64,000 bases of DNA, from positions 10,391,917 through 10,455,916 of the forward strand of contig NC_058508.1 of assembly GCF_020382885.2 (NCBI RefSeq), read 5' to 3'. The DNA is from Scatophagus argus. Taxonomy: Eukaryota; Chordata; Actinopteri; Scatophagidae. Under the pieces are notes generated by a model. The model worked only from the letters and a program-made list of their open reading frames with translations, was not told where the DNA came from and searched no databases. Each line of letters starts with the position of its first letter. The stretch's first letter is position 1. Positions 4,377-50,586 of the stretch are shown piece by piece. The position numbers and the translations under genes are program-made.

Positions 4377-4993
<617 letters not shown>

Positions 4994-29639: not shown

Positions 29640-33773
<4,134 letters not shown>

Positions 33774-34414: not shown

Positions 34415-37400
34415 TTATTCAGTAAGGTAGAAGTGCATTTTGTCGTTGACGTTCTTGCGCTCCGGATTGAGGCGCTTCAGGATCTGTGCCAGCACGTTGA
34501 CAGTCTGCTCACTGCTCAGACCTGTTCGCTTGGTCTGGAACTTCTTCAGCAGGTCTTTAGTGGTCATCGGTTTACGGATCAGGTACCGTCGGACTGCTTC
34601 TTCTGTAAGCTGCACATCACTGTGGAGTAGATGAATAAAAATGTTTTTTCCCTCTTACCATCAATCAAACTATGTACATTTCAGCTAAAATTAATGTGAA
34701 TTCAATTATGGTGTAGAATAATGAAATAACTTGACATTTCTTAGAAGCATAAAGTACCTTGAGCTTGGAGTGGATTTGCCTGATGGGGGTTGAGGTGTAC
34801 TCTTCCCAGAAGGACCAGGGCTCTGACTGCTGGGCTCCATCTTCAGTCTTTTGGCAGCTGGTGAGTCAGTGGCAGGACCCTGAGTCTGTCTCTTACCTGC
34901 AGCAAACAGCAACAAAGGAAGCTCAAGTTTCAATTGTGATGGCCATGTTTCAGTTTTGCACGTTAAAATGTTTACGTGTTGTGTGCATGTGTTGCGGCGT
35001 ACGAGCGAACACCTTGCTCTAGTTTGCTGGCAGCAGCACGTAGCGTATTGGAGGTGGAGGCAGAGTCTATGGATGGTGTCCCTGGGCGACTGCCAGTCCT
35101 GGAGCTGCCGGCAGATCCACGCCCACCTCCACGTTTAGGAGGCGTGCGCTTCTTCTGGGAGAGGAACGGAGACAGGCATTTGATGAGGACAAAAAGAAAA
35201 ACACTGCAAATACAAAACCATTCAGAACTGAAAACATCCATTTACTGAGCCACACACACACACACACACACACAGGCTAATCACCATGAACAGAGCTGAG
35301 GCCGTCTCTCCCTCGATGTCGCTGTCGTCCGAGCTGTCCGACTCGCCGCTGCTGTCTGCGACACACAGATCCACACAACTCAAACTAAATGTGATGGAGT
35401 GTCACTGAACACTGCTTGTGTTTATTATGACCCCATTCTGTTGTACACATGTTGTCAAATCCTCATCTGCCTCTGAGAAACCCGTACCTTTTTTCTTCTT
35501 CTTTTCCAACTGAACCGGGGTTTTCTTTCCTTCCTCTTCTTCTTCTTCTTCTTTTGCTTCCTCTTCATTCGGCTTTTCCTCCTCGCTTTCTTCCTCGCTT
35601 TCAGATGCCTCATCAATCCCTATAAAAGGACAAACATTTAAACAACAATCTAAATAACAGTCATTCTTTCAGGAAAGCCAATGAGTCAAGCAGTTATGTG
35701 GCAGGAATATCAGGACACACACACGCACACAACCAACATTATGGGCATGAATATGAATAAATGAAAGAAAGTGCATAAAATGATCAGTTATGTTCAACTG
35801 TCTGACCTTTAGGGAGGTCTTCTCCTTTGTTGGGTTTTCCTTTTTCTGGCTCGTCCTCTGAACTGTTTGGAGAACAAAATGACATATTAGTAAAGGGAAC
35901 ACAACCAAAAAAAATTAATGAATAAATAAATGACACACTGTAGTGTCCACAGTGGATTCTGTATGAAGCAATGCTACGGATCTGACCTGCTTTCATCTGA
36001 CATGTAATCCACCTCTAGACCCTCGTAGTCCCCGTCATCGCTGTCCTCCAAGGCCTCTTCAGTGCTCTTCCTCTTCTTCTTCTTCTTTCCTTTTCCTTTC
36101 CCCGTGTTATTCTTGGTCTTCGTTTTGCTCTCTCCGTCTGTGCAGCAAAGAGAACAGTGGGGGGGGGGAAAAAAACGCAAGATGACACAATGTTGTTGTT
36201 AACTTACAGGTGTATGATGTCATAATGACAATTCGCAGGGGACGGATGAGGTGCCCATCCTGTTTCTCTCTCCTTACCATCCCCCATACTGCTGTCACTG
36301 TCATCGCTGCTCATCTCCAGGTCGTCATCCAGGTCGTGGATGCGCAGGTCGCCCCCTCTCCCACCCGCCTTCTTTTTCTTCTTCCCCGACTTCTCAGACT
36401 CATCTTCCTCATCGTCACCACGCTCCTGCTCCCGGAAACGTTTCTGAAGCATAATGCTGAAGTGATTCACCACCTTGTTCCTTCTGTAAAAGGAGGAGGA
36501 TGGCTGTTTCACAAACTTGCACCATTTGGGGAGAATAAGTACTTATTTTTTTTTTCTTCTTCACTACAAACTGAAATCCCTCCCTGTTCCTCCACTCCCT
36601 TACCGGCCCCACTCCTCCTCAGCCTCCTCGGCAGTGAGAGTTCGGTGCTTGGCCAGCGGCGTGAAGTTGTACCAGCCGTGGACAGGGAAGGCCTCAAAAG
36701 CTCCATCAGGACACTGTGTGAAGATGTAGTAGGATGCATTTTCTGTAACACCTCCCTTCTTTTGACCTTTGAACCTGACGCCAACACGCAGACAGACAGA
36801 GGGAGAAAGCAGGTGTATTGACAACAGCAGGGAACCTCCATCATGCCTGCACACATAGGCGTATGGAGAAAATTTGATAAGTATATCTACAAACCCAGGT
36901 ATTATAAGCTGACTTTAAAAACATGCCTAAAACACATTTTAGCTTACCACAGCCTTTTAGAATTCTAGAACTTTTATCTTCCCTGCTTTAAGTCCTCTAT
37001 GGATTCAAAGTAACTGACTAAGAGATTTGTGTAAATAATAAGTCATATGCAAAAACATGTCAGTTTGAATTATAATGACGTATATGTTCCCTCCTGACAC
37101 AGACGGGTTCTAAAAGAGACACTTTGGTGAAAATGAGAGTGAATCAGAAAGTTAAGAAGTGTCTTTCTCCCCACCTCTTGCCAGCCTTGCCATTGACCTT
37201 GAGCAGCCAGGGCTGGTCCTCTGCTTTGAACTCTCGTGTCACAATACCAAACTTCTTCCGCCGTGCTTCCTCACGCTGCTTTTTGCCAAACTCGCTGCCA
37301 GCTGCACCTTCCGGCATCTCTTCCTCCCCGTATATCCGCCGAGCACTCATGTCTCTTTCCATACGAGCCTGAAGACAAAGAGAGGGAGATGCTAAAACAT

Positions 37401-38341
37401 GTCAAACTAAAAGGTATATGGCATATATGGCTTCTAATTTAAGTGAATCATCTGAGACTTAAGGTTTCCAGTATCCTTTGATTTCCCTGTTCTTTTGAAG
37501 GGGAAATCGCACTGCTTGTCATTTCTCTCTCTGTACTACCAAGCGATGACAGCAGCTCAAACTATCTGCCATGTGAAGCCCACCTGTGTCCAAGTTGAAC
37601 AGTTGACTCTGTCTCCTGCATTGAAAGCCATGATGTTGTACTTTTTGCTAGTGTTTCTGTGTGACAGACAAACAAACAAAAAGTTATTAACTCCACCTGC
37701 TAATTCCACTTGAAGCTCACAGGAGCAGGCAGGACATTTACTTACAGCATAATCAATTAATCGTGCATGCAGTCTGGTAAATCCATTTTTATTTGGAAAG
37801 GTATATTTAAGCAACAAATCTGATACATATACAAAGAATCAAAACTTGTCAAATAAAGTAAATTGCCTTCAACACACATCATTTCCTTTGGTAAACCCAC
37901 GTGAACACAGAAGTACACAACATCCATGCACAGAAACCGCCAGAGATGGAATCCTTCTAGGCTTTTTTTTCTATTTATACCAACAACAAGGTGGAGACAT
38001 GAGGCTCATTTAAATTCTTAACAGTGGATATTTGTGGATATACGCTTGTCAGAACATGTTACTCACTTGGGAACTCGCACAGTGTATTCTGTGGTTGAGG
38101 AACTGCTGCTCCCCTGCAAGACAAACAGATTCTGATGTTTGTTTGGGTTTTTTGGACTGTATCAGCCCTTTATTTTTCCTCACATCTCTAATGATATTTG
38201 AAGCTAACTACCGTACAGTTGGCTGGTCGTGAATTTGCAGCAATGCACATGCACAAGAGCGGACTTTAGTAGAGTCAGCGGGGATAAAAGGGAGATATTT
38301 GTCGTTGGGAGAGCAGAGTGAAAACTTACCAGAGAGGTCAT
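34415..38341 (-). CDS. gtf2f1: General transcription factor IIF subunit 1 (RAP74)
   Basis: Thirteen coding exons in transcript order: 38341-38330, 38113-38067, 37656-37584, 37368-37175, 36774-36604, 36483-36278, 36137-35987, 35862-35807, 35619-35488, 35355-35285, 35154-35013, 34896-34758, 34619-34415. They give 532 aa (human 517). RAP74 pairs with RAP30 in TFIIF, binds RNA polymerase II and helps initiation and elongation. Residues 1-165 hold the dimerisation region (EYTVRVPK, YNIMAFNAGD, EDQPWLLKVNGK, KKGGVTENASYYIFTQCPDG). Residues about 190-400 are highly charged, with Lys and Glu runs and SDDGDYEGLEVDYMSD. The end is a winged helix (TEEAVRRYLIRKPMTTKDLL to NDKMHFYLTE) known to bind the FCP1 phosphatase. 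The start exon encodes only MTSL. All joins are GT-AG and in phase. Confidence 0.96.
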
Positions 38342-42063: not shown

Positions 42064-45000
42064 ATGATGAATTGCGGCACCTTTTCACTTCTCCTGGGTG
42101 AGTTTTTTCTTGTTTTACATAATTGATAATGTTGGGCAACAAATTATTACACTAAAATAAAGTAAAAAACAGTGTATATCTTTATTTAATGTAAGTCCAC
42201 TAGGACAGAACAATTATTTTAATACCTGAATCTGGATTCAGATTTGCATTTAGACTGACAGACAATTATGATACGTGCCCCTTTTATTTTTGGAACCAAA
42301 TGCACTAATATTCTAAAAAATGGCAATGGCACAGTTACTGCAATAAAATACTGTAAGTTTATTTTTGCCCAAAAAATGTGAGTATTAATGTGAGTAGTAC
42401 TACAGAAAATATATAAGTATAATGTACATTATGTTGGTGGCTTTTACAAGTCTTTTAAGAGTACATGTCCATTTCTTGTCATCAATATCATCAGCAGAGG
42501 TAATTTAGTAGTCTAGCATATGTTTATATGTTTATGAAATTTACATGTAATCCTTTTTTCAGATGATGTGAAGACTTTGACAGAAATCATTCAATTTGAT
42601 TGCTGTGCTAATTCAGTGTTGAGATTATCTTGAACAGAACACTGACAGCTATTCTCAGAACCGTTAACTCCTCTTTGTGCTTTATAGGTTCACTCTTCAC
42701 TCTCGGTCATTGTGCTTTTCCACCTGGTAAGGATGACATATATCCATAAACATCAGATAACCTACAGATTCTGGTTCTTGGTGAAGTCACAGTAATTTTG
42801 GAATAATGTTTGGTGATAATTTTGCCATTATGTGCAGGTTCTTGTGATGGATACACCAACGTAACCGAACCATGGCGCAACTATTTATTTCGCTCAACTT
42901 CCTTCGTTGGCTTCCCAAAGGGTGATACACATTTTGTCGGGAAGTGGTGGCGCTTCACAGGGATTGGTGGAGACAGAATCATTCCAATCTGCCATTTAGG
43001 CCCCATTGGTGGTACCCAATACGCCATACATTCTTCTTTGTTATATCCAACAACTGAATCTTTAACTGAAACAACTGGAAGTGTGTTTGCCGATGTTGGA
43101 TTGTGCAACGTTTACCTTATTATAATGAGCGTGGTCCTGTGTCCTGGAGGATTCTACATATACAAACCATCAAGTCATCCGTACAGCAATGCGGGTTATG
43201 TTACCTGTAAGGAATAATTACTCGCTGTCATCCTTTCCTTTATGCTTTAAAGTAGTCATGTTCCACTCAATGGTGTGCTCAATGCTGTAATTAAAGAGAT
43301 CTACTTTCAGCTTTTCAGAATGAGTTTGTCTCTGTGTGTGTGTGTGTGTGTGTGTGTGTTGTCTCTGTTTAGATCATTATCAGTGTAACCCTGATTCCTG
43401 TGGACCACTTGCTAAGTGCTCAGGTGATGGAGGCTGTATTTGTGTTCCTGGGTATGAAATCCCCCCACAACATCTACCTACTCCAGATTCATATGGCTGT
43501 GTTGGTAAGTATATTGATTTCGTCAGTATTGTATCACAATGTGATTTATGAAGACTGTAATTACCTTTTTTTTGTTGCTGGAAATATGTTAAGATGCTTC
43601 ATGCATGCTCATTATCTGTATTTTGTGCTGAATTTCCCACTTTAACTGCTGTTTGTGACTTGTGACAGACATAGATGAGTGTCAGAAGACTGCAGGGATC
43701 TGTGGTCCTTATTCGACTTGTAATAACACCATTGGTAGCTATTTTTGCACCTGCCTCGCTGGATTCAGTGCAACAAATCCAGCAGAATCACCTGGACAGA
43801 ACAACTATTGCAATGGTACCATATAAAAACATATCTCTTTATGATTTAATTATGTCACATTTAAGCAGGTTGGAAAATATCTTCCCAGGTTGACATAGGT
43901 CTGTTGTCTCTATAGATATTAATGAATGTCTTGAAAATGTCTGTGGTGATGATGGAACCTGCCACAACAACGCAGGAAGTTACATGTGTGAATGCCACCA
44001 AGGCTACCACCTGGTACCTGATGCAACTCCCACTTGCCAAGGTGTGTTTACTGTACTGTTACACATTGCTTTATCTAGTCAACAGTATTACCAAGTGCAG
44101 ATCTAAATGTTATGTTTGGAATTTAATGTCTGTCAAAACATTAATACCGTCATCACCAAATTTGGTAGTTTATTATTATTATTATTATTTTTACTGAGGA
44201 AAATATAAGTAAATGCTTTTGTGAAGATGTTTCAGCATCTATCATCAGGTAACTGGAATGCAAATATGTCCTTTTGATTTTCTAAAGTAATGACATTTAA
44301 ATTTTGGAGATTTGGAGAAATGACCTTTTCCTTTTATTTTTCTTATATTCATAATTTCATGCCGGATGTGTTAACTGTTGGTCAGATAAGGACGAGTGTT
44401 TCAACTCAACCATCTGTGGCCCTGACTCCATTTGCGCCAACACACCTGGAGCTTATACCTGTACATGCAAAGTGGGGTACGCACCAACTGAACCAGACAA
44501 GGAACCCGGCGAGGCCAACATCTGTATTGGTATTTGAACTGATGTTTTTCAGATGCAAGATGTTTTTTGGAAAATTCTACCAACTGTAGCTGCAGCTGCG
44601 ACCCAGCCCATAGAAACCCACCAGAGCAGTATACACAGGGGAACGGATAAGTCCATGGCCTAGGGCAGAAAGAGATGAGTTAAACAGCTATCTTTTGATG
44701 CAGGTGTGGTTCACCTATTTGAGTGAATATGCAGAAAGTTTGAAGTTAATAACTAATACTTCCAAAATACTGCCTCCATGCTGTGATTTGTCATGCCTGA
44801 GGTTTCTGGAGTGTTTTTGTAAAGTTTCATGAGGCTGCGATTATCCTCAAGGTCTATTTGAATGAAATGCTATCGCTACAATAAGTCTAGAAGACTAGAA
44901 GTCAAGAGTCATGCAGAAAGCTGTCTGGTTTAGTGATTCATCCGTGTGTGATGTATTTGGCAGATGTTGAGGAGTGTGTCAAAGATGCTACCATCTGCGG

Positions 45001-48000
45001 TCCCCATGCCAACTGCACAAATTCGATCGGTTCTTACAGCTGCACCTGCTTCTCCGGTTTTCGGCTGAACAACCTGGCGGTGATAGCCAGCGCCACTAAC
45101 CCATGCACAGGTGTGTGAACTGCTACTCGTGTGGCTTTTGATTTTACTATCATATATTTTACTACTGTGTGTTTTCTCTCTTCTACAGATATAGATGAGT
45201 GCATCGAAACACCTGGTGTATGTGGTAGAGAAACTGTGTGCACTAATGTACCAGGGACCTTCTATTGTTCTTGTCCAGATGGATTCTTCCCTTCAACTGG
45301 AATCCTGTGGATTTTAGGGGTCTCATTTTGTCAAAGTGAGCTTAGGATGCATTTGGCTACTGAATATACAGTACACTGCAGTAATCTATGTGCTCAGTAA
45401 CTGGCTCATGTTTTTCCTTGTCATTCACTCAACAGATCTTCAGGACATTTTAGATGAGATAAAACCCCCTGAGGTAAATATCAGCAAAATGGCACAGCCA
45501 AGCAAATTTTACACATTGAGATACTTGTAGGACAATTTCCATGATATATCACAAAAGCACATGTGTGTTTTCAAGACTTTTGTTACAAACACATTCAGGA
45601 CAGATCACAGATCCAAGTTACCCATGAGGGGAATAAGTTAATTTGACAAAATTATGCATGCCTCAGTCAAATTTGTCACTTCTTAATAAAGGCTCACTTG
45701 TATTGTCGGCATATAGTGTGCAACAGTGATTTTAGGTATACAACTATCACACATCATTCACCACACACAGATTAAAACACTCCACTTAAACTGCAAAGGT
45801 AACTGAGGTTACGTTTGTGCATTCCCTACAGGGACAGACAAAAGAGAGAGCTTTTCTTGGCCACATGGAGCAGCAATTGAAAGACAACGCAGGCATCATC
45901 TTACCAGAACCGGTGAATAGAGCCACTAATGACCTACACAGAGGGTTCTGTTTAAGCATTTGACTGTGCTGTTAATCATGATTGGATGCTCTCATACTGA
46001 AAACAGTCTACAGATAACTGGGAAGAGGACTGTCACCGCTTTCAGTTTGACCTGGTTTCATCAAGAGGAGGAGCTCTGTACTCGAGCACTCAGTCGCAGT
46101 AGCTCATGTGCACATCTAGTTTCACATAAGCTGGAAATTAATTTAACTTCAGTTTGATGCACATCATGCGTGCATGGCACTGCAACATTTACATAAGTCT
46201 TCTTCTCTGTGTGTCTTGTGCTTTCTCTACAGACTGTGGCAAACAGCTTCTCAGCATCCATGGTACATGTTGTTCTCTAAATAAACAGTGTACTGCATTA
46301 ACCCTACTCTGTGTTTTCATTATCAGGCAGGTCAGTTATTCTCATATTTATTCTTGCAGGAAGTGTCAGGTGTGGGACCACTTACCAGCTCGGTCAGGGT
46401 GAGTAGCGAAGGAGACGGGGAGACCGGCAGTGTGATCCTGGGCCTCTCAGACCGTTTAGTGTCTGCATTAGTGCAGCCAGGTCAGAACCAAACCAGGAGA
46501 ACTGTGAAGAATCCAACAGTGGGTAAAGACATGTTCCTGTTGGTTTATTGTAGAAACGTGCTGTTTGTAAACTTGGGGTGGATATAAAATCAAAGTGCAA
46601 TCTGTGTGTTAGATTTAAGTCTCGAAACTGTTGGGCCTGGAAGCAGCCGTGCAGAAAGATCTCTTCTCTCAGCCAAAGGAAACATCATGGAGATCAACTT
46701 GGAAAGTCTGGCCAAAAACAACAATGGTGAGTGACAGCTCATAATGAAGACGATGGCAATTACCACATTTTTTAAAAGAATTACACCAGCAATTTTGCAT
46801 CCCCGTTTTCCACAAGGGAGGTATATTGTCTTCCTACCTTGTGCAGCGCAGCTGGTTTTAATTCATTTGAAGATGGCAAATCACTGCACAGCCTTTGGAT
46901 TTGTGTGATGGTGTGCTTAGGGAAAATTGATTTGATTTAATTTGGTGACTGTCACATGCTAGAGAAAATAGTTTTGTGCGCACAATAGGAAGTACACAAT
47001 GACACACGTCTGCCTGTCCTGGGTGAGGGATCCCTCCTCTGTTGCTCACCCTGAGATTTCTCCCATTTTTTTCCTGTTAAAGGTTTTTCTGGGCAGCGAG
47101 TCAATGTGGGGGTCGAAGGGCAGAGGATGTTGCTGATGTTATGTTAAGCCCTTTGAGACAAACTGCTTGTAAAAATGGGCTATACAAATAAAGTTGTCTT
47201 GTCTTGTCTTGTCTTGAAAACACAGAGCTGTGAAAACTGTAATGACATGTGAAGTGAGGGAAGAGTTACATAATCACCTTCACTATGTGGACATTTTCAG
47301 GTTCTGCAGCAGCAGCCTTCATGACTCTAAATGGGATGGAGAGCCTTCTTAGTCATCAATACTTCAAAACAGAAAACAGGACAGAGATGTACTCGGATGT
47401 CATCACTGCAATCTTACCCTTGGTTAAGAACACCAGCCTCACAGAGCCTGTCAACTTCACCCTCCGTCACAAGGAGGTGCTGCCCAGTTTATCTATCATC
47501 GGCTTTTTAAAATTAAATCTTAAAAATAGATAGATAATTAGTATGTTAAATGACACACAGCTTGGTATCTTTCAACAAATCTAAAAATCTTTGTTTCTCT
47601 GGGATGAACAGACAACACCTGAATCTGGTTTGATGACCTGCGTGTATTGGGAGGGCAAAACAGAGGGAATGACCAAGACCATGCGTTGGTCAGTGGAGGG
47701 CTGTTGGGTTGCATACACCAATGAAAACTACACAGTGTGCAGCTGCTCTCACCTCTCCACATTTGCTCTCATCATGCAGATCGGGGAGGTATTGTGGATG
47801 TGTTTGTGAATGTGAATGTGAATGTGCATGTGCGGGTTACCCACTCCAAAGCCAGGTCGATCACAGTATGTGTTTGACTCTGTGTTGTGTCTTCTCAGCC
47901 TCCACCAGATGATGCGTTTTTAGAGTGGCTAAACCGAATGTGTGTGATTGTTGGACTGTTCTTCTTGGCTCTGGCCATCTTCACCTTCCTCCTGTGTAGC

Positions 48001-50110
48001 TGGAACCCCAAGATCAACAACACAGCCCGTCTCCACCTGTGCCTCAGTCTTTTCTTTTCTCATCTGCTGCTGCTGTGGAATGACAAATACGTAAAACACG
48101 AGGTAAAACCTGAGATGGAGATCTTGTTATTTCTTTCAAAAATAATAAATGGGATCTCTCAAACATGCAATAATGTGACTGAAGCTGACCATCTTTGCTG
48201 AAGATCATTCTTGAAGGATTTCTTTGTTGTGTGTCTCTGCAGCTGGCCTGCACTGTCATGGCAGGTCTTCTACACTTCTTAGTCATTGCAAGTTTTGTGT
48301 GGATGCTCCTGGAGGCACTACAGCTCCACCTGTTGGTCCGAAGGCTCTCCAAGGTGCAGGTCATCCAGAGAGATGGCCTCCCCAGGCCATTGCTCTATTT
48401 AATTGGTTATGGTGTTCCATTTGTGATTGTGGGTATTTCTGCACTGGTATATTCTGATGGATACGGTGCTACTGAGGCAGATGTGTGAGTAGGACAAACA
48501 GTAACACATACCCTCATTCATATTCTACTGTATATCTAATGTGCCTCTAGGCTGGAAGACTGTATTTGTCTGATTCTTTTGCAGGTGCTGGCTCTCACAA
48601 CAGCGCAGTTTCAATTGGGCTTTAACAGGCCCTGTGATTGTTATCCTTGGAGTGAGTATATTGGATATCAGCAATTGTGTCCTATCTGTTTAAATGAAAT
48701 TACAATCATCTCAGCCTGGTGTGTTCCCTATAATTGTCTGGACCATGTTTTTTTTGCCTGCAGAAAAACAAACCAAGGTGCACTTTAAGACTGACATCTG
48801 TCAAAATACTGTTGCTGAGAATGTTATGAACAGATTGTCAATGAAGACCAACTAAATACATGCATTCCAAAGAGAAATTTTCCTGTATTCACCTACTTAA
48901 CATGAGTTCAACAGGTGAACTTCTTTCATCATGTCTTCATGAGAGACATGAAGAAAGGGTGTTTTCATAAGTTGTAATGCAAAGGAAGGTGAAATTTTGA
49001 TGTACAAGAAACTGAAAAAGTGATGCAGAAGCTTGCCAGAAAGTGTAGTCCACCAACTGTGGATAAATGTCTGTAGAGGACAAGACTATTATTTTGTGTG
49101 TCATTTGACTAAATGATAAAAAAGATAAAAAGCAGTCCTGCATGGCACTGAGTCACAAATTAGGCAAATTGTTAAAGAAAATTTTATTGATTACTTACAC
49201 AATTTTGCTGTGGAGAAAGCTTCTTGTTAGCTTGTGAGCGTTGACACCTTTTACTGCTAGGACACCCTAAAGAGGATGAGGCTCTCATACTTTTGGCATA
49301 GCTTGTATTGAACCTCTATTTATGTATTTTTCTCAAAGAGATGTTTCTTTACGATCATTGGAGGTTTGTGTGGAGGTTTTTAATGCGTTTTTCAATATTT
49401 GGCAATACGTTGTGGTTTGTTTTATCGCTCTCTCTCTTTCAGCTTAATTGGATTTTGTTCTGTGCGACTCTGTGGAGTCTGAGACCCACATTGGCCAACA
49501 TGAAAAGTGATATTTCTCAGTCCAAAGACACCAGGTATGAAGCAAGACTGTTAAAATTGTCTCCACATAGATATGACAAATCAGAAATTTATGAATTTTG
49601 CTGTTTGACTTCAATAGAAGTTGCTTGTTTCCAGGAAAGTAGAAGGTGACAATTAAAAAAATACACTGTAACAACATATCACATACTCCACATGTTCATT
49701 TAAAGGATTTTGGTGACCTTAGGCTGATTTATAATTTGATATTCTAATATAAATTTATATTGAGCGAAAATTAGGATCCTGAAGAAAATCATTATTATGG
49801 TGACTGAGAGGTTTGGGGACAGAGTTTTGTTTTCCATCCTTTTGTGTGATAATGTGTTGGCTCTTTTTAAGTAGATATATAAGTTAGAAACTCATTCAAT
49901 TCTCAATTATTTTACAGGCTGATTTTGTTCAAGATTGTGGCGCAGTTTGTCATACTGGGCTGTACTTGGATTCTGGGCCTGTACCAGACAAATCTGTTCT
50001 TTCGGGTCCTGTTTATAATTCTTAACTCCCAGCAGGGAACCTTCCTCTTCATTGTCCACTGTCTGCTCAACAAGGAGGTACTTTAGCTCCACCAGTCTCC
50101 TTTTGTAGAG

Positions 50111-50147
<37 letters not shown>

Positions 50148-50586
50148 AGCACTGAATTGCTGATTTGTTTGTTCCAGGTGAGAGAGGAGTATATTAGATG
50201 GCTGACATGCTCTTGTGGAAATGACAGATTTGTGGTGAGTTCCTTGATATAAATCCTTTTTTATCCCAGTTGAATTTGAAAAAGTTGTATTACAAACAAA
50301 CTTACATGTATTGATTTACTTCCCCTCCTACACATCCCTCATGAATCATCCCTCATTCTCAGCTGATATCTTCAGCTCATGCTGTATTCAGTGCTTTGTA
50401 TGTAAAATGGATGGTGTGAACAGTGCAGATTTTGAGCATTTTGGTTGTACGTAGACTGTAAATAAATTTCAACAGCACTAATATCGATTAAATAATCTGT
50501 TTCAACAGAAAGATGCACCTTCAGTGTCTGAGGATTTGGACAAGACCGAGAAAAAGACAGATGAGGGAAAAAATGATGACTGCTAA
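42064..50586 (+). CDS. adgre5: Adhesion G protein-coupled receptor E5 (CD97)-like, with N-terminal D8C module
   Basis: Twenty-three coding exons: 42064-42097, 42688-42726, 42838-43206, 43373-43504, 43669-43815, 43916-44041, 44386-44529, 44964-45110, 45189-45335, 45436-45473, 45832-45912, 46233-46262, 46360-46522, 46613-46726, 47301-47476, 47612-47788, 47899-48102, 48243-48484, 48585-48651, 49443-49534, 49918-50077, 50178-50234, 50509-50586. All phases close, giving 987 aa. Order: signal peptide (1-23), D8C module (25-147), six EGF modules (148-428), GAIN/GPS (about 440-688), seven helices (about 695-945) and a short charged tail ending NDDC. EGF, GPS and 7TM sequences are CD97/ADGRE-like; the D8C module is not found in mammalian CD97. 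Teleosts have several adgre5-like genes, so the exact paralogue is uncertain. It is a plasma-membrane receptor expected to self-cleave and signal through a tethered agonist. Confidence 0.9.
42838..43206 (+). CDS. adgre5: Receptor exon 3: D8C (uromodulin/GP2-like) module
   Basis: This single large exon has phase-1 borders, so it is a shuffling-compatible module. It encodes [33 protein letters not shown], a GGTQYAIHS segment and [16 protein letters not shown]. These landmarks follow the D8C pattern of uromodulin, GP2 and OIT3 (C-D-x-Y, PWRN, WYRFxGxxG, CGT, GFYVY). Only five cysteines remain of the usual eight: the second cysteine, the one before GT, and one of the later pairs are missing. Confidence 0.8.
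43333..43359 (+). repeat. adgre5: (TG)n tract before the receptor exon 4 acceptor
   Basis: A TG run lies 13 nt upstream of exon 4, separated from it by TTGTCTCTGTTTAG. Confidence 0.9.
43373..45335 (+). CDS. adgre5: Receptor exons 4-9: six EGF-like modules, one per exon
   Basis: Six consecutive phase-1 exons (43373-43504, 43669-43815, 43916-44041, 44386-44529, 44964-45110, 45189-45335) each encode one EGF module. EGF1 ([12 protein letters not shown]) lacks the calcium signature. EGF2-6 start DIDEC, DINEC, DKDEC, DVEEC and DIDEC and contain [32 protein letters not shown] and NVPGTFYC, the calcium-binding pattern with the Tyr/Phe-Cys hydroxylation-type motif. In CD97/EMR receptors such EGF arrays bind CD55, matrix or glycosaminoglycans; the ligand here is unknown. 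Phase-1 exons allow EGF skipping by alternative splicing without breaking the frame. Confidence 0.92.
47008..47216 (+). repeat. Interspersed LINE/SINE-like repeat in receptor intron 14
   Basis: The stretch has 'ggatccctcctctgttgctc', CCTGTTAAAGGTTTTTCTGGG, AAGCCCTTTGAGACAAACTG and GGGCTATACAAATAAAG, then a (CTTGT)n tail. This strongly resembles a common teleost non-LTR repeat 3' end with a pentamer tail. It lies in the 574-bp intron between exons 14 and 15. Confidence 0.7.
47612..47788 (+). CDS. adgre5: Receptor exon 16: GPS autoproteolysis motif
   Basis: The exon encodes CVYWEG, then [20 protein letters not shown], then [10 protein letters not shown]. The four-cysteine/two-tryptophan GPS pattern is complete, and the cleavage triad His-Leu/Ser (residues 676-678, genomic 47750-47758) is intact, so self-cleavage is expected. 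The residues after the cut ([10 protein letters not shown]) match the tethered agonist of ADGRE receptors. Confidence 0.93.
47899..50077 (+). CDS. adgre5: Receptor exons 17-21: seven-transmembrane domain
   Basis: Exon 17 carries helices 1-2 ([35 protein letters not shown]), exon 18 helices 3-4 ([38 protein letters not shown]), exons 19-20 the CWLS extracellular loop and helix 5, and exon 21 helices 6-7 ([33 protein letters not shown]). The extracellular-loop Cys and the helix 3 Cys that form the class B2 disulfide are both present. The intracellular LLNKEVREEY motif after helix 7 is typical of the family. Confidence 0.93.
50115..50143 (+). repeat. adgre5: (TG)n tract in receptor intron 21
   Basis: The TG run fills nearly a third of a 100-bp intron (50078-50177). 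Confidence 0.9.

Follow-up and report, generated by a model that had tools for sequence, protein, structure and literature searches.

The window analysed here is the whole 64,000-nucleotide stretch of Scatophagus argus DNA (positions 10391917-10455916 of contig C16). On its forward strand, between 42838 and 50234, lies a predicted receptor gene of 20 exons that can be read in a single, stop-free frame with AG and GT at all splice borders (Table 1). The first of these exons codes for the module that is the subject of this work, and it is followed by six EGF exons (126-147 bases), each of the seven beginning and ending in phase 1, and then by exons for the GAIN region, the GPS, and the 7TM part. 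Upstream of the receptor gene, and head to head with it, is a gene for TFIIF alpha (PF05793), to the left of which are an epimerase-type gene and an ion-channel exon.

Table 1. Predicted exons of the receptor gene and neighboring features, in window coordinates
Feature	Position	Strand	Phase	Basis or remark
Ion-channel exon	4377-4616	-
Epimerase-type gene	32317-32559	+
TFIIF alpha	34418-37401	-		PF05793
Candidate first coding exon (ATG and first half of signal peptide)	42067-42097	+		inferred from exon combinations
Candidate small exon (second half of signal peptide)	42688-42726	+	1-1	inferred from exon combinations
D8C/D10C-derived module, four cysteines	42838-43206	+	1-1	phmmer, shuffles, profile
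EGF1	43373-43504	+	1-1	matches EGF1 of ADGRE5/EMR2; not of the D-I-D-E-C type
EGF2	43669-43815	+	1-1	calcium-binding type
EGF3	43916-44041	+	1-1	calcium-binding type
EGF4	44386-44529	+	1-1
EGF5	44964-45110	+	1-1
EGF6	45189-45335	+	1-1
GAIN-region exons (span 45436-47476)	45436-45473, 45832-45912, 46233-46262, 46360-46522, 46613-46726, 47301-47476	+		open frame, splice sites
GPS exon, CSCSHLSTF (cleavage motif HL|S)	47612-47788	+		Pfam GPS 2.2e-12
7TM exons (span 47899-50234)	47899-48102, 48243-48484, 48585-48651, 49443-49534, 49918-50077, 50178-50234	+		Pfam 7tm_2 1.4e-38; ADGRE1 2.7e-59

The receptor gene

Pfam searches with the 938-residue model matched EGF_CA at 1.8e-39 in addition to the GPS and 7tm_2 families given in Table 1, and none of the 10 families matched was a ZP module, with a GPS and a 7TM part present instead. 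Among 24 PDB sequences matched at E ≤ 1e-10, the 7TM part was closest to ADGRE1, followed by ADGRE5 (1.8e-56). EGF modules 1-4 were closest to ADGRE5 (3e-27). By these matches the predicted receptor is an ADGRE (CD97/EMR-type) adhesion GPCR, for which autoproteolysis at HL|S and G-protein signalling would be expected by analogy. The proposal of the initial annotation that D8C, EGF, GAIN and 7TM parts belong to one gene is supported by sequence, frame and phase.

The label of the GAIN region reflects its position between the EGF array and the GPS, with no profile match of its own. Three of its exons, no more than 38, 81 and 30 bases long and lying within 45436-46262 between the EGF array and the GAIN region, were placed by splice sites and open frame only, and are the least certain of the GAIN-region set.

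A tblastn search with the model gave 29 matches in the window, none of them outside 42800-50300 and hence no second copy of the gene. The flanks, covering 100 kb on either side in 20 stretches of 10 kb, were negative in tblastn at 1e-2 and, over 4080 ORFs, in the profile search at E ≤ 1, so that no tandem duplicate was found within this range. Collections of viral and genome contigs yielded 5 and 27 pattern matches, respectively, none of which was confirmed by tblastn, as expected for an animal gene.

Homology of the module exon

The module exon comprises 369 bases, preceded by AG and followed by GT, and encodes a module of 124 residues. Its borders, with phase 1 on both sides, agree with those drawn in the initial annotation and join it in frame to the EGF exons and, beyond these, to the GPS and 7TM exons. 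All of the landmarks on which a D8C module had been proposed (CDGY, PWRN, WWRFTG-GGDR, GGT and GFYIY) are present in the exon.

A phmmer search of the PDB with the module returned five sequences at E ≤ 1, namely two of GP2 (4.6e-6 and 3.7e-5), two of UMOD (1.4e-3 and 2.0e-3), and one unrelated sequence (0.27), with the GP2 and UMOD alignments extending over nearly the full length of the module. Furthermore, the Smith-Waterman scores against GP2, UMOD, and an OIT3-like copy on contig C10 were each reached by none of 2000 shuffles; the score against a partial copy on contig C21 was at shuffle level, reached by 183 of 2000. A D10C profile was then made from an alignment (A1) by removing the window row and keeping the OIT3-like, GP2, UMOD, C21 and C9 rows, and with this profile, the gaps of which had been set with the window row present, the exon headed the 1341 ORFs of the window (7.6e-10, against 0.12 for the runner-up) and scored 34.3 bits, as against 10.8 bits for the best of 5000 shuffles. 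Relatives of the module had been sought in the genome (570.7 Mb in 48 contigs), and of the seven matches found, A1 took in those on C10 and C9 and, with its two pieces combined into a single row, that on C21. Left out were C24 (L007), which is like C9, and C6 (L008), which had an E value of 0.98 and whose listed ORFs showed no D8C.

The Pfam family D8C_UMOD (PF23283) did not match the exon at E ≤ 1, nor the 938-residue model at E ≤ 0.1, and it did match two other D8C genes of the same genome (5.5e-22 and 7.8e-38). Judged by the matched ranges, the 88 positions of PF23283 start after C2, so that it would depend on five of the six cysteines that this module is missing. A fortuitous similarity, in an exon that is unrelated or not coding at all, would be in keeping with the silence of Pfam and with the shuffle-level score against the C21 copy, but is all but ruled out by the phmmer, profile and shuffle results, with three targets for which no shuffle reached the score, and its probability is negligible. 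On these comparisons the exon encodes a homologue of the UMOD/GP2/OIT3 D8C module, now termed D10C. Because it is homologous yet missed by PF23283, and has four cysteines, it is better described as a D8C-derived homologue than as a canonical D8C; the earlier assignment thus held with respect to homology and failed with respect to the Pfam family.

Cysteines and core residues

The spliced module has four cysteines, at positions 3, 52, 90 and 102, and not the five counted previously, because the cysteine of GYVTC was read through the donor T|GTAAGG, where the spliced codon T|AT encodes Tyr. The four occupy invariant columns in the six-module alignment and correspond to C1, C3, C6 and C8 of GP2. 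The bonds of the GP2 D10C module are reported as C1-C8, C2-C9, C3-C6, C4-C10 and C5-C7 (PMC8930769). In the window module C1-C8 and C3-C6 are kept whole and C2-C9, C4-C10 and C5-C7 are lost whole, with six of the ten cysteines gone, including those behind the name D8C. Were four of ten cysteines kept at random, two whole pairs would remain in 10 of 210 cases, a weak number in itself, and pairwise retention is what would be expected of a protein that still needs to fold. The spliced count of four and the two whole GP2 pairs rule out five cysteines together with a disulfide pattern that, as the initial annotation put it, must differ: the pattern is thinned, and not necessarily different.

Eight non-cysteine positions of GP2 are listed for kidney-disease mutations of UMOD (PMC8930769). 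By eye, five of these are identical here (R74, D86, W92, R94 and Y164), V163 is conservatively replaced by I, and D61 and P62 are changed. The buried W and R and most of the buried core are kept relative to GP2 and UMOD, and the module is accordingly expected to retain the D10C fold in a small version; AlphaFold2, run on the single sequence without an alignment, gave a mean pLDDT of 35.4 and a pTM of 0.24, values too low to bear on the fold. The module would provide an example of how far the D10C fold may lose disulfides in register, with three pairs lost whole and two kept whole.

Candidate leader exons and inclusion of the module

A search for a single signal-peptide exon ending in phase 1 found nothing convincing. 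Combinations of leader exons were more productive, with 17 passing (these have pieces in common) compared to 0-4 in 20 block-shuffled controls. The pair in Table 1 has the best splice-site scores of the 17 and is third in hydrophobicity, two other combinations being slightly more hydrophobic; it enters the D8C-derived exon in phase 1 and is consistent with the residue numbers 25-147 given to the module in the initial annotation. This two-exon leader is to be taken as a model, one of several possible exon pairs.

The leader exons plus the module would suffice to encode a short protein, and the exon could thus be part of a small gene of its own, for a secreted protein, lying immediately before the receptor gene. 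There is, however, no ending within the exon, its phase-1 donor fits EGF1, 166 bases downstream, and no alternative terminal exon came to notice there, making such a gene very improbable. A second concern is that the exon, while homologous, is a cassette or is decaying, and that most or all transcripts omit it, in which case the mature receptor would start at EGF1. With phase 1 at both borders it could be skipped without a frameshift, its donor is middling (score 1.8), six cysteines have been lost, and human CD97 manages without the module. We nevertheless consider regular skipping quite unlikely, as the exon is open over its full length, core residues are kept and cysteines are kept pairwise, and a plausible leader enters it in phase 1.

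Source of the exon

The best other relative of the module in the genome (1.8e-9) is found on C10, in a gene (L002/L010) that has its D8C, encoded by a single phase 1-1 exon, ahead of EGF modules and a ZP-N/ZP-C pair, and which we take to be OIT3-like from this architecture. Its copy gives the best pairwise score to the window module, at an identity of 26%. In both exons the distance from C8 to the split exit codon is 22 residues, and in both genes the exon after the split codon starts with H-Y or F-Y. In the D8C genes on C21, C9 and C24, the module lies in two reading frames with a break inside. Because the C10 gene has a one-exon, phase 1-1 D8C with a common exit point, and the modules on C21, C9 and C24 are split, an OIT3-type exon is the likeliest source of the window module. 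The earlier suggestion of exon shuffling gains support from the symmetric phase of the exon and from the OIT3-like gene, where the D8C is likewise confined to a single phase 1-1 exon.

On C21, the D8C copy (PF23283 at 7.8e-38; L004:1423-1863, minus strand) is followed at a distance of about 0.7 kb by an open frame for a C1q domain (2e-13; L004:276-698, also minus strand); the two may represent another D8C fusion, or else neighboring genes. The copies on C9 (L006) and C24 (L007) are similar to each other, each in two exons, and are presumably VWDE a and b.

Alternatively, vertebrate ADGRE genes may have had the exon from early on, with mammals losing it later, in which case fish would not have acquired it by shuffling from OIT3. 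The comparison is based on one genome, a long divergence is suggested by the 26% identity with the OIT3-like copy and by the six missing cysteines, and ADGRE genes are described as numerically unstable across vertebrates (PMC8584163). Against this, human ADGRE5, the only comparison made, is without the module, and no D8C appears among the domains listed for 59 zebrafish adhesion receptors in the available part of that survey, the authors of which warn that 5' ends are often incomplete (PMC4335454). On balance we consider an ancient exon the less likely reading.

Proposed function of the module

The explanation that we favor, and hold to be probable, is that of an ADGRE receptor whose extracellular part starts in a reduced D8C/D10C module, which would serve as a ligand-binding tip. 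A single exon with phase 1 at both ends, most likely an OIT3-type one, would have been inserted into the phase-1 intron between the signal peptide and EGF1, after which three of the five disulfides would have been lost, each pair whole, with C1-C8, C3-C6 and most of the buried core retained. If spliced in vivo as modelled, the module would form the outermost tip of a six-EGF stalk, as part of the N-terminal fragment. Its partner may be a glycan or a glycoprotein, presented by another cell, by mucus or by a microbe. Engagement of this partner, and the pulling force that comes with it, would then be passed on to the GAIN domain after self-cleavage and would uncover the tethered agonist that follows the GPS, as in other adhesion GPCRs.

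The UMOD/GP2 module presents a high-mannose glycan to FimH (PMC8930769). In the window module, Lys stands opposite UMOD N275 and Gly opposite GP2 N65, leaving no sequon at either place, and there is a sequon, NVT, at C1+5. By analogy, the module may serve as the pathogen-binding head that was initially proposed. Teleost omcins, which are UMOD/GP2-like, GPI-anchored ZP proteins, carry D10C modules, and they protect zebrafish against bacteria, with omc5 mutants being more bacteria-sensitive (PMC11415648). Since D10C-bearing omcins have this protective role, an immune role of the window receptor is possible. The more specific suggestion, that of a signalling receptor with a UMOD-type microbe- or mucus-binding tip on a force-sensing adhesion GPCR, is speculative and rather unlikely as it stands. 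Were it true, contact with the module, which in UMOD, GP2 and the omcins traps bacteria in the manner of a decoy, either soluble or anchored, would here trigger signalling in the receptor-bearing cell; a module that still binds glycans or bacteria would in this way join the decoy to direct signalling. Adhesion GPCRs are mostly orphans, and their extracellular domains point to ligands; a D8C-derived head would accordingly offer a lead to the ligand of one ADGRE receptor.

Comparison with known systems

Mature CD97 and EMR proteins start with EGF modules. ADGRE5/CD97 and ADGRE1/EMR1 have in common with the window gene an EGF array whose first EGF is of another type, the HLS of the GPS, and the 7TM part, and differ from it in that the window gene has one extra module ahead of EGF1. 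In PDB 9mqr, the solved chain of human ADGRE5 matches EGF1 of the window gene from chain residue 11 onward and has no D8C module; the initial statement that mammalian CD97 lacks the module therefore holds as far as this one solved chain goes.

Searches of open-licence papers on D8C/D10C, UMOD, OIT3, adhesion GPCRs and exon shuffling turned up no D8C-GPCR fusion, and in the available text of a 2026 review the words 'uromodulin' and 'D8C' are absent (PMC13197933). Automated annotations with this architecture may exist. Teleost omcins resemble the window gene in having D10C modules, and are described, in the portion of the source available, without a GPCR fusion (PMC11415648).

The OIT3-like gene on C10 (OIT3/LZP) has the same one-exon, phase 1-1 D8C, the same exit point, and EGF modules after it. 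It differs in having ten cysteines and a ZP module, whereas the window gene has GAIN and 7TM parts instead. With the decoy module of GP2 and UMOD, a D10C, the window module shares a nearly full-length alignment, the C1-C8 and C3-C6 pairs, and the buried W and R; in contrast to that module as described (PMC8930769), it is without C2-C9, C4-C10 and C5-C7, and is carried by a gene that has no ZP filament.
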